From assembly GCA_913020705.1 (NCBI GenBank), contig CAJWBY010000070.1, positions 1-21,316 on the forward strand: 21,316 bases of DNA, read 5' to 3'. The translations under genes and the position numbers were made by a program. How positions within the stretch are numbered: position 1 is the first letter of the stretch; each line of letters starts with the position of its first letter. A model generated the notes under the pieces. It saw nothing but the letters and a program-made list of their open reading frames with translations. It was not told where the DNA came from and searched no databases. The stretch comes from an uncultured Colwellia sp. (GTDB lineage: Bacteria; Pseudomonadota; Gammaproteobacteria; Enterobacterales; Alteromonadaceae). Shown in pieces: positions 16,096 to 19,149 of this stretch.

Positions 16096-17658
16096 CTAAC
16101 TTATCCTATACTTTCGAAGTTTCATTGCTATTTTATTGTGTGATACTTTCAATCGTTCAGCTAATTTTCTTGTTGTCGGATACAGCGGATAAAGTTCTTT
16201 TAACAAGTTACTTTCAAACTCATCTTGAGCAGTACTCCAATCACTCCATTCATTATGTGTAATGTTATTCTCAGTCTCACTGACATATTCTTCAATATTA
16301 CTCGATATTGTTAAACCTGAAGTGGAAAATTGAGATAAAGCTCCATCAATATCTGACTTCTCGATAATACCTGTCTCATTAAGGGCAATCGCTCTGAATA
16401 ATATATTTTGCAATTGACGAATATTCCCTGGCCATTGACACCTTTTAAGGGCACGTAACGCTTGTTCAGTTAACAGAGGTACCTTTCTTGCAACTTGTAA
16501 AGCTGCCATTTCAATAAAGTGTGTTGCTAATAATACGATATCATCAGTTCGATCACGTAGTGGCGGTATTGATAAATTAAGTACATTTAAACGATAAAAC
16601 AAATCTTCTCTAAAGAGTTTTTGTTCAATTTGTTTAGGTAAGTTTTGGTGGCTAGCACTAATAATACGTACGTTTGCTGTTAATTCTTGCGTTCCTCCTA
16701 AGCGACGATATTTATAATCTTCTAAAAAGCGTAAGAGCTTAGCTTGAAGATATACAGACATTTCAGCAATTTCATCTAAAAAAATAGTGCCAGTGTCTGC
16801 AAGTTCGAATAGTCCCGGCTTACCACTTTTTTTAGCCCCTGTAAAAGCACCTGAAGCATAACCGAATAATTCACTTTCTAATAAATTTTCAGGTAAAGCT
16901 GCACAGTTTAAAGCTAAAAATGGAGCATTAGCGCGACGGCTAGCATTGTGTAATGCACGAGCTAAAAGCTCCTTCCCAGTACCCGTTTCGCCACTAATCA
17001 GAACGGGTAATTCTAATTCAGAAAATCGACGTGTTTGTGATTTCAATAAACGAATGGCTGAATTTTCTCCGATAATGTTTTCAAATTCAGTTTGTTCACC
17101 ACTCTGGAGTAAAGCGATATGCTGTCCTATACGGTTCATTGAGCGCAGTGTAAGAATAACGCCGGATGCATTATGCTCCGAATAAATAGGCGTTATATCC
17201 GCTAAATATGAATGTTCAAGGAATAGCAGAGAGAAATTACTACTGGGTAAACTCAACATTGATTCAAATGACTGATCAATATATTTATCAATATGCTGCC
17301 CTTCAATTCTTAAATTTGATCCTTCTAATAAAGACCTTGCAGCAGTATTGATGATGACTATAATTCCATTTTGATCAATATCTATTATTGGGTCAGGGAT
17401 GGTATCTAATAATGTTTGTAAGTGGGCTTCACGTCTTTGAGTGGGGAGTAAATCCACAGAGATACAATGAATAATATCGTCCCTATTTAAGAGAGAATTC
17501 TGTATCTCAGATAAAATTATATTATCTGATATAAAGTGAACGTATATGTAATGAGTAACAACTTCTAGAGAGCAAATATTCCATCTGTTTTCTGCAAAAA
17601 TAGTAAGCACTTCTTGGCTTATACCAATTCTGTCTTTAACTTTTATTTCAATTCTCAA
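16096..17658 (-). CDS. TyrR-like sigma-54-dependent regulator (ACT-PAS-AAA+-Fis HTH)
   Basis: This is a 520-residue TyrR-family regulator. In order it has an N-terminal ACT domain (M-R-I-E-I-K-V-K-D-R-I-G, about 1-75), a PAS domain (about 78-185), a sigma-54 AAA+ domain and a Fis-type HTH (about 494-518). The AAA+ domain has Walker A G-E-T-G-T-G-K at 223-229, G-A-F-T-G-A at 270-275 and Walker B with D295-E296. Unlike E. coli TyrR, which lacks G-A-F-T-G-A, this protein keeps the sigma-54 contact loop and should activate sigma-54 promoters. The HTH T-R-K-L-A-E-R-L-K-V-S-H-N-K-I-A closely resembles that of TyrR, predicting a TGTAAA-like box. The start is TTG with a strong AGGTGAT just upstream; an overlapping ATG is out of frame. 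It is divergent from methionine gamma-lyase, and its own promoter region holds a perfect box, suggesting autoregulation. Confidence 0.93.
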   Translation of the reverse strand: MRIEIKVKDRIGISQEVLTIFAENRWNICSLEVVTHYIYVHFISDNIILSEIQNSLLNRDDIIHCISVDLLPTQRREAHLQTLLDTIPDPIIDIDQNGIIVIINTAARSLLEGSNLRIEGQHIDKYIDQSFESMLSLPSSNFSLLFLEHSYLADITPIYSEHNASGVILTLRSMNRIGQHIALLQSGEQTEFENIIGENSAIRLLKSQTRRFSELELPVLISGETGTGKELLARALHNASRRANAPFLALNCAALPENLLESELFGYASGAFTGAKKSGKPGLFELADTGTIFLDEIAEMSVYLQAKLLRFLEDYKYRRLGGTQELTANVRIISASHQNLPKQIEQKLFREDLFYRLNVLNLSIPPLRDRTDDIVLLATHFIEMAALQVARKVPLLTEQALRALKRCQWPGNIRQLQNILFRAIALNETGIIEKSDIDGALSQFSTSGLTISSNIEEYVSETENNITHNEWSDWSTAQDEFESNLLKELYPLYPTTRKLAERLKVSHNKIAMKLRKYRIS

Positions 17659-17691
17659 AACATCACCTAGATCAAGTTACTAAAGCATATT

Positions 17692-17709
17692 TGTAATATA
17701 ATTATTACA
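17692..17709. promoter_or_regulatory. TyrR-type box 1 (TGTAAT-N6-ATTACA)
   Basis: This is a perfect palindrome, TGTAAT-N6-ATTACA, with the geometry of the TyrR box (TGTAAA-N6-TTTACA). It is centred 42 bases upstream of the TyrR-like gene's TTG start and about 158 bases upstream of the predicted methionine gamma-lyase transcription start. It can serve both autoregulation and distal activation. Confidence 0.75.
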
Positions 17710-17710
17710 T

Positions 17711-17728
17711 CGTATTAATTATATTACA
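17711..17728. promoter_or_regulatory. Degenerate TyrR-type box between the two perfect boxes
   Basis: The right half is a perfect ATTACA (17723-17728); the left half, CGTATT (17711-17716), matches four of six positions at the correct N6 spacing. Its centre is 19 bases from box 1, nearly two helical turns, so a cooperatively filled weak site is plausible. Confidence 0.4.
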
Positions 17729-17751
17729 AATATAACAGCTCACTCTCAACT

Positions 17752-17769
17752 TGTAATTTATTTATTACA
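17752..17769. promoter_or_regulatory. TyrR-type box 2 (TGTAAT-N6-ATTACA)
   Basis: This is a second perfect TGTAAT-N6-ATTACA palindrome, centred about 98 bases upstream of the predicted sigma-54 transcription start. That is a standard upstream activating position for an enhancer-binding protein. A lone TGTAAT half-site follows at 17808-17813, closer to the promoter. Confidence 0.75.
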
Positions 17770-17831
17770 ATGTATTCTGTTTTTTTGATAGTGAAAATAT
17801 ATACCATTGTAATATAAGGATATTTAACCTC

Positions 17832-17847
17832 TGGCTTTGTTTTTGCT
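17832..17847 (+). promoter_or_regulatory. Sigma-54 (-24/-12) promoter of methionine gamma-lyase
   Basis: TGGC at 17832-17835 and TTGC at 17843-17846 are at exactly the sigma-54 spacing (GG-N10-GC) and are followed by T. The -24 element keeps the invariant GG and the -12 element the invariant GC; the A-C-G that usually follows TGGC is replaced by TTT. Transcription would start near 17858, leaving a leader of about 85 bases. The divergent regulator carries G-A-F-T-G-A, which supports the call. Confidence 0.75.
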
Positions 17848-17860
17848 ATAAGGAAATGAA

Positions 17861-17903
17861 AACGGATTACGCACGTAAATTTTAACGGATTACATACCGT
17901 GCG
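17861..17903 (+). repeat. Direct repeat and hairpin in the methionine gamma-lyase leader
   Basis: AACGGATTAC occurs twice, at 17861-17870 and 17884-17893, 23 bases apart. CGCACG (17870-17875) can pair with CGTGCG (17898-17903), a 6-bp stem enclosing the second repeat. Both lie in the predicted 5' leader just downstream of the sigma-54 start. The second repeat runs into ATTACA, and another ATTACA is at 17917-17922. Confidence 0.45.
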
Positions 17904-17943
17904 GCTAATTTATCTCATTACAAAACTTTAAATAGAGAAAGTT

Positions 17944-19149
17944 ATGAAAAATAGTAAATATGTAGAAACTCAAGCCATTCACTCAGGAAGAATTAATGAT
18001 GAACAATTTGGTTCATTAGCCACTCCCCTTTACCAAACATCTACATTTATTTTCGAAAATGCCCAACAAGGTGCGGATCGTTTTGCAGGTGAAGCTGAGG
18101 GTTTTATCTATGGCAGATTAGGAAACCCTACGGTAAGACAATTAGAAATGCGTGTTGCCGCCATGGAAGAAATGGAAGATGCTGCAGCAACTGCAACAGG
18201 GATGGCTGCAATATCAGGAACTTTGCTAGCTAATTTACAGTGTGGTGACCATATTATCTCATCAAGCGCTTTATACGGCTGTTCATATGCTTTAATAAGC
18301 CACATGCTCACTAAGTTTGGTATTGAAGTCTCGTTTGTTGATATGCAGGTACCAGAAAATATTGAAGCAGCTATAAAGCCAAACACAAAAGTAATATTTT
18401 TAGAAACGCCTATTAATCCAAACCTAGTGGTTCTGGATTTGAAACGAATTTTAGCGATTTCAAAACATCATAAAATTCTATCAATTGTTGATAATACTTT
18501 TCTTACACCAGTTTTACAGCAACCAGGTAAGTTTGGTGCAGACATAGTTGTTCATAGTGCCACTAAGTACCTCAACGGGCACGGTGATGTTGTTGCAGGT
18601 ATTATATGTAGCAATGCTGAAATGATAAGTAATATAAAATTAACTGCGCTTAAAGATATTGGCGCGACCATGAGTCCTCATGATGCATGGCTTATAATGA
18701 GAGGATTAAAAACGCTTCCATTACGTATGGAACGTCACTGTTCAAATGCTCAATCAATTGCTGAATTTTTAGAAAGCCATCCGATGATTGATAAAGTTTA
18801 CTATCCGGGTCTGAAGTCCCACGACGGATATAAATTTATTGGTACTCAAATGAAAGCTGCGGGAGGCGTGATCGCTTTTGAATTGAATGCAGACTTAAAA
18901 GGTGGAGAAGAATTTATTAATCGAATGAATTTATTCTCAATCGCTGTAAGTCTGGGAGATGCTGAGTCATTAATTCAACATCCTGCCTCAATGACACACT
19001 CACCTTATACACCAGAAGAAAGAATAGAAGCGGGTATTAGTGATAGTTTAATTAGGATATCAGTTGGCTTAGAGCATGTGAATGATCTAGTAGAAGATTT
19101 AAAGCAATCATTAGACAAAATTGAAAGCCGCCAAGATAAAGTTGCATAA
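17944..19149 (+). CDS. megL: L-methionine gamma-lyase
   Basis: This PLP enzyme splits L-methionine into methanethiol, 2-oxobutyrate and ammonia. The 401-residue protein is a Cys/Met-metabolism PLP-family member with Y56 and R58 in Y-G-R-L-G-N-P-T, Y111 and the diagnostic C113 in Y-G-C, D183 binding the pyridine nitrogen, and the Schiff-base K208 in S-A-T-K-Y. K237-D238 match the Lys-Asp pair that, with the active-site Cys, distinguishes methionine gamma-lyase from cystathionine gamma-lyase and gamma-synthase in Pseudomonas. Cystathionine gamma-lyase activity cannot be excluded, but the residues argue against it. The ATG follows AGAGAAAG. Upstream lie a sigma-54 promoter and TyrR-type boxes, so transcription probably requires the divergent TyrR-like activator. 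The product methanethiol makes this gene relevant to marine volatile sulfur. Confidence 0.93.
   Translation: MKNSKYVETQAIHSGRINDEQFGSLATPLYQTSTFIFENAQQGADRFAGEAEGFIYGRLGNPTVRQLEMRVAAMEEMEDAAATATGMAAISGTLLANLQCGDHIISSSALYGCSYALISHMLTKFGIEVSFVDMQVPENIEAAIKPNTKVIFLETPINPNLVVLDLKRILAISKHHKILSIVDNTFLTPVLQQPGKFGADIVVHSATKYLNGHGDVVAGIICSNAEMISNIKLTALKDIGATMSPHDAWLIMRGLKTLPLRMERHCSNAQSIAEFLESHPMIDKVYYPGLKSHDGYKFIGTQMKAAGGVIAFELNADLKGGEEFINRMNLFSIAVSLGDAESLIQHPASMTHSPYTPEERIEAGISDSLIRISVGLEHVNDLVEDLKQSLDKIESRQDKVA

Follow-up and report, generated by a model that had tools for sequence, protein, structure and literature searches.

How is the gene for methionine gamma-lyase, a methanethiol-producing enzyme, turned on in a Colwellia-type marine bacterium? 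A 21,316-nucleotide contig of an uncultured Colwellia sp. (CAJWBY010000070.1, analysed whole and hereafter called the window) raises this question with a divergent gene pair, in which megL (17944..19149, plus strand, 401 aa) faces away from the gene of a TyrR-like regulator (16096..17658, minus strand, 520 aa, TTG start) to which we give the working name MegR. The MegL protein scores 554.1 bits against the 549.7-bit cut-off of TIGR01328 and so passes the curated threshold for methionine gamma-lyase. An earlier note, made from the letters of this DNA, had read the pair as a self-contained switch sharing a 285-bp interval (17659..17943) with two perfect boxes, one degenerate box and a lone half-site, and all of these features are present in the sequence. 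Comparison with related loci leads us to propose that MegR is very probably a GcsR-like, TyrR-family sigma-54 enhancer-binding protein whose dedicated target is the divergent megL, a reading that predicts how Colwellia-type marine bacteria switch this enzyme on. At the level of sequence, the comparison documents the parts and their co-inheritance, shows their spacing to be phased, and sets box and recognition helix apart from those of the TyrR paralogue.

The comparison drew on a scan of 587 relatives for the regulator, from which the best 80 loci were taken; the pooled loci numbered 73, or 68 after removal of identical intervals, and in 61 of these megL lies divergent within 1 kb of the regulator. 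The conservation counts below use these 61 distinct intervals. Left out were two genomes represented twice among the 68 loci and lacking megL (L168 with L221, L169 with L220), the paralogues L216 and L218, also without megL, and L214. The expected box count in the window comes from dinucleotide shuffles. Among the best 80 loci and those of an additional family scan, the closest regulators (L170 and L171) are 82% identical to MegR, and in the first 14 loci, from Colwellia, Litorilituus, Thalassotalea and metagenome-assembled genomes, megL is divergent in 14/14 and further genes of the window are shared in 12/14, which places the window in their lineage.

The pattern TGTAAW-N6-WTTACA occurs twice in the window against 0.01 expected. 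Both occurrences are perfect TGTAAT-N6-ATTACA boxes in the shared interval: box 1 (17692..17709) adjoins the regulator start, and box 3 (17752..17769), which precedes the -24 element described below by 80 bp, is the probable enhancer site. Between them lies box 2 (CGTATTAATTATATTACA, 17711..17728), which carries two mismatches and stands 19 bp from box 1, and a lone putative half-site TGTAAT is read further on (17808..17813, plus strand). At least one box with at most one mismatch is found in 57/61 intervals (shuffle mean 0.4, maximum 2), and 51 contain a box pair anywhere (shuffle mean 0.175, maximum 1). In 45 of the 61 loci box 3 is preceded by a pair 18-21 bp apart, in 34 of them with exactly 19 bp; judged by these relatives, the degenerate box 2 is evidently a conserved partner of box 1.

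The second part of the predicted switch is a -24/-12 element, TGGC-N7-TTGC, pointing toward megL (17832..17846, plus strand). Significance of this element from the window alone had to be rejected, as the pattern occurs three times where 0.82 are expected, and comparative support was needed. A strict TGG-N8-TTGC element toward megL is present in 45/61 intervals and on the opposite strand in one; among the first 21 loci it is found in 19 (shuffle mean 0.11, maximum 1). It is conservation, rather than the window count, that carries the putative element. A scan of the window for sigma-70 promoters returned three matches against 2.7 expected, no more than chance. We would place the megL transcription start near 17858. 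In 49 loci a box lies 40-130 bp upstream of the element, and the spacing from box 3 to TGG falls at 67-69 (5 loci), 78-82 (36), 89-92 (6), 112 (1) and 126 bp (1), forming clusters separated by about one helical turn. A Rayleigh test on 20 loci of the first set gives a p of ~3e-6 at period 11, a value uncorrected for kinship and for the five periods tried. The earlier note had staked its reading on conservation of boxes and element at orthologous loci, a comparison set beforehand, and both are conserved. In one relative (L001) the distance from TGG to ATG is 265 bp, and near-perfect 20-base inverted repeats, by eye resembling a miniature inverted-repeat transposable element, lie between the -24 element and megL.

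We asked what the regulator itself has in common with such activators. Pfam assigns PAS, Sigma54_activat and HTH_50 domains, and the sigma-54 contact loop GAFTGA, the mark of TyrR-like sigma-54 enhancer-binding proteins, is intact (residues 270-275; 16834..16851, minus strand). The recognition helix, assigned by analogy with the TyrR helix-turn-helix (HTH), reads SHNKIAMKL (residues 506-514; 16117..16143, minus strand). The TyrR model NF008085 covers residues 1-520 at 389 bits, a full-length match below its curated cut-off of 576 bits. Residues 1-178 align at E 2.6e-8 with 2jhe, a structure of the TyrR N-terminus, and in the predicted model residues 2-67 follow a beta-alpha-beta-beta-alpha-beta order (mean predicted local distance difference test score 83.5); together these point to an ACT domain at the N-terminus. 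The protein also matches 1g2h, and its listed Foldseek matches cover the AAA+ region. Of the domains claimed by the earlier note, PAS, AAA+ with GAFTGA, and the TyrR-like HTH are thus found directly, and ACT is recovered by the 2jhe alignment and the model rather than by Pfam, giving a full-length TyrR-like ACT-PAS-AAA+-HTH architecture.

Does the regulator act here, or does TyrR? An alternative is that canonical TyrR and sigma-70 control megL through the boxes and that the AT-rich sequence contains the -24/-12 element by chance. TyrR has been predicted by Leyn et al. to control mdeA in Shewanella (PMC5343134), and the element by itself is not significant in the window. Relatives without MegR also speak for this alternative. 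Of 147 family genomes, scanned for MegR at E<=1e-112, 51 contain MegR and 84 megL; both occur in 51, MegR alone in none, megL alone in 33 and neither in 63 (Fisher 2.5e-17, kinship ignored). In 20 of the 33 megL-only genomes examined (L252-L271), phhA follows megL by eye in 20/20 (with another open frame between in L256; 4/4 phhA genes tested are phenylalanine 4-monooxygenases), a TyrR start falls within the examined stretch in 15/20, and a TGTAAA-type box with at most two mismatches lies within 350 bp upstream of megL in 11/20. There megL is kept in a phhA/TyrR neighbourhood, the same enzyme in a different regulatory setting. In the 350 bp that precede megL, however, TGG-N8-TTGC is found in 0/20 of these loci, in contrast to the 45/61 with phased spacing beside MegR, and the sigma-54 element therefore appears together with MegR. 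Control of megL by canonical TyrR and sigma-70 is accordingly improbable where MegR is present.

The same distribution bounds the system. Alteromonadales-wide occurrence, as the earlier note's proposed comparison implied, is rejected: a match to the regulator at E<=1e-138 occurs in 7 of the 197 genomes of the order, set beside the 51 of 147 in the family. Two class-wide relatives (G371 and G511) gave no megL match in the examined stretches.

The boxes themselves separate MegR from TyrR. A scan that put no constraint on half-site position 6 finds T there in 237 of 264 half-sites, C in 26, G in 1 and A in none, as the earlier note's shifted box (T for A) had anticipated. Besides the megL-linked regulator, a second gene above the NF008085 cut-off, the canonical TyrR, is present in 8/10 related genomes; GAFTGA occurs in 0/8 of these TyrRs, again in line with the earlier note, their recognition helix is SHTAIANKL, and directly upstream of tyrR lies a TGTAAA-type box with at most one mismatch in 8/8, against no A at position 6 at megL. 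Among the 61 megL-linked regulators, GAFTGA is found in 54, GAFSGA in 6 and GAFTDA in 1 (60/61 GAFTGA or GAFSGA), and the helix is SHNKIAMKL in 50, SHNKIA[IL]KL in 4, another sequence in 4 and unread by the search pattern in 3. MegR thus shows neither mark of TyrR, the TGTAAA-N6-TTTACA box or the absence of GAFTGA. The megL of locus L002 and the tyrR-like matches of genome G002 both match in pieces, suggestive of frameshifts or assembly errors.

In the tree the first 21 MegR proteins form one clade (support 100/96), wider sampling adds three second copies (97/95), and GcsR and TyrR/PhhR fall outside. MegR is evidently a paralogue of TyrR: it shares the full-length domain order and a related box with TyrR/PhhR, but is 36-39% identical to Colwellia TyrR, which lacks GAFTGA and has TGTAAA-type boxes. 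Pseudomonas PhhR-type rows carry GAFEGA in place of GAFTGA, a substitution also reported in PMC3162934. Because GAFTGA-like motifs occur in MegR, in 5/7 GcsR rows and in outgroup rows, the comparison suggests that TyrR lost the sigma-54 contact. The locus is a compact case of paralogous regulators whose circuits are seemingly separated by a few residues of the recognition helix and one base per half-site, and of a sigma-54 mode that MegR and GcsR retain and TyrR probably lost.

GcsR of Pseudomonas aeruginosa is the closest described relative in kind. It is reported as a TyrR-like, RpoN-dependent and glycine-responsive activator of glycine catabolism, an enhancer-binding protein like MegR with 18-bp TyrR-like sites upstream of its target (PMC4894688); that target is the gcs2 operon for glycine cleavage, whereas the neighbour of MegR is megL. 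The GcsR box (TGTAACG-N4-CGTTCCG) and helix (SHTAIAHRL) differ from those of MegR. GcsR is 42-44% identical to the window regulator and falls in a separate clade, so that MegR is not a member of the GcsR group. Five Pseudomonas proteins (L015-L019), assigned to GcsR because a GcvP-like gene was seen next to them by eye, keep GAFTGA. The motif is lost in Stutzerimonas-type GcsR relatives L020 and L021 and in L220, which read GAAHAS, GVASGT and GTANAS.

Taken together, the earlier note was right on the anatomy of the locus and most likely on its mechanism. In the mechanism that we favour, MegR would bind the paired boxes near its own start and also box 3, which stands about 80 bp ahead of the -24 element; a signal bound through the N-terminal ACT/PAS region would promote its assembly, and the GAFTGA loop would contact RpoN polymerase at TGGC-N7-TTGC, leading to an open complex. 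The MegL then made would convert methionine to methanethiol, ammonia and 2-oxobutyrate. DNA binding, megL activation, probable autoregulation of megR through the paired boxes and a role for IHF are what we infer from the arrangement. The IHF consensus is YAAN4TTGATW, and 46/61 loci carry, 32-20 bp ahead of the -24 element, a block that matches it with at most one mismatch, against a mean of 0.95 and a maximum of 4 in single-base shuffles of that stretch and none in the opposite orientation; the exact consensus occurs in 15/61. An IHF bend between box 3 and the promoter may thus help in most relatives.

The paired boxes raise a further alternative, that MegR mainly represses itself through boxes 1 and 2 and a different enhancer-binding protein drives megL at sigma-54. 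In favour of this, the distance of the paired boxes from the regulator start, 34-70 bp, is close to that at which the relatives' tyrR has its own box. Box 3, however, keeps its phase relative to the promoter, and in the family the element accompanies MegR and is found in 0/20 examined loci that lack it, which leaves self-repression as the main role very unlikely. That MegR instead drives megL also fits the distribution of the paired-box pattern (at most two mismatches): in 13 genomes it is found in the megL interval of 8 and at one other place (G008:C38), and such near confinement is consistent with a single-target regulator and with the self-contained switch first proposed. The other 5/13 genomes have no match, at least some of them since their spacing differs from 19. 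Perfect boxes occur at 10 places in 9 genomes, where the reversed control has 13, so that there is no excess, and six perfect-box loci away from megL, inspected by eye, showed nothing obvious.

Several observations weigh against this account. The loci are related, and kinship inflates all counts and p-values. The strict element is missing in 16/61 intervals. Four of these hold a relaxed version (L001, L174 and L192 with TCGC, L116 with ATGC). In the other twelve, read by eye, the first T of TGG is changed in L179, L200, L211, L213 and L219, the element of L217 carries TCGC, and L205-L209 and L212 show TTGA or TTGT, so that their -12 GC is missing its C. No clear boxes are seen in L116 and L217, whose recognition helices also differ. 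The reversed control of the paired-box pattern gave 3 matches, set beside the 9 true places in the 13 genomes. The IHF test was devised after the aligned columns had been inspected; in these 12/61 loci the script found no box/element pair and the alignment anchors were placed by eye; and the window's own block (17800..17812, plus strand) is degenerate, with three mismatches, so that help from IHF is doubtful in the window. Pfam gives no ACT match in the window regulator at 1e-3. Canonical TyrR and RpoN are, for the window's lineage, demonstrated in relatives, where RpoN is present in 11/11 genomes searched.

What signal would MegR sense? Methionine, our least certain point, is somewhat favoured as its effector, which would make MegR a possible methionine-responsive sigma-54 sensor. 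The linkage to megL in 61 loci, and in 9/14 clostridial loci of a separate ACT/PAS-type lineage, makes methionine the simplest signal. A switch of the same build that responds to cysteine, homocysteine, 2-oxobutyrate or another amino acid is a serious but lesser possibility: an effector is not readable from sequence, and GcsR, as described in PMC4894688, illustrates that ligand specificity can shift among TyrR-like proteins. In two genomes a second paralogue stands next to the gene of a 2-oxoacid dehydrogenase, which fits methionine or 2-oxobutyrate. An alignment of ACT residues made to infer the ligand gave nothing decisive. Set against these other signals is the megL linkage itself.

The clostridial loci offer a parallel. 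In Clostridiales, mdeA-metT has been predicted by Nie et al. to be under sigma-54 and MdeR, and the word TyrR does not occur in the main text of that prediction (PMC6615313). Among 245 genomes searched at E<=1e-125 we found 14 clostridial megL loci. In 9 (L241-L249) an enhancer-binding protein adjoins megL upstream on the same strand, and TGG[CT]-N7-TTGC lies directly before megL in 8/9 of these and 0/5 of the others. The nine regulators, presumably the published MdeR, have 520-532 aa and begin like TyrR; four were scanned and all four carry PAS, AAA+ and HTH_50, with ACT below cut-off in three, and one matches 2jhe. The one tested against NCBIfam scored higher for PrdR (413.6 bits) than for TyrR (356). 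Like MegR, they combine a sigma-54 element with an enhancer-binding protein beside a methionine gamma-lyase gene; unlike MegR they stand in another phylum and upstream on the same strand rather than divergent. They separate from MegR at 100/100 in a midpoint-rooted tree that carries composition and long-branch warnings, and the tree gives no support to a common origin. In Pseudomonas putida, MdeR is described as an Lrp-type (Lrp/AsnC) divergent local regulator affected by L-methionine (PMC8707732), local and divergent like MegR but of an unrelated protein family. GcsR, clostridial MdeR and the Shewanella TyrR-mdeA prediction are precedents that the earlier note does not mention. No description of the Colwellia-type TyrR-like regulator/megL pair was found in the open-access titles and abstracts searched; a system of this kind is known, and the methionine branch, the divergence of box and helix from TyrR, and the copied module in this lineage look new.

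This apparently copied module is seen in two genomes, in which a second MegR relative lies divergent from an AceE-like E1 gene (G634, as L216/L250, L250 2362-7557; G598, as L218). The E1 falls far below the aceE cut-off, and E2 and E3 genes follow in G634, while G598 shows only part of E1. Both loci repeat the megL geometry: two box-like sequences, 19 bp from each other and each with 3-4 mismatches, are joined by a third (4 and 2 mismatches) that precedes a sigma-54-like element, TGGC-N7-CTGC, by 79 or 81 bp. That the operon encodes 2-oxobutyrate dehydrogenase is an attractive guess, because 2-oxobutyrate is a product of MegL; the dehydrogenase is possibly the next step of the pathway. We hold as evenly balanced a broader picture, in which a methionine-sensing MegR class had its box and helix co-diverge from the TyrR of the same cell, insulating the two circuits, its module was copied with promoter geometry to this (probably 2-oxobutyrate) dehydrogenase operon, and a distinct TyrR-like clostridial lineage took over the same enzyme gene.

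A further second MegR-like copy, in locus L214 of genome G700, has the helix SHAKISRKL and stands near a 231-aa protein without NCBIfam match. A distant pyridoxal phosphate enzyme of the Cys/Met-metabolism family lies 1.5 kb away, with TGG-N8-ATGC and TGTAAC-like half-sites upstream of its gene.

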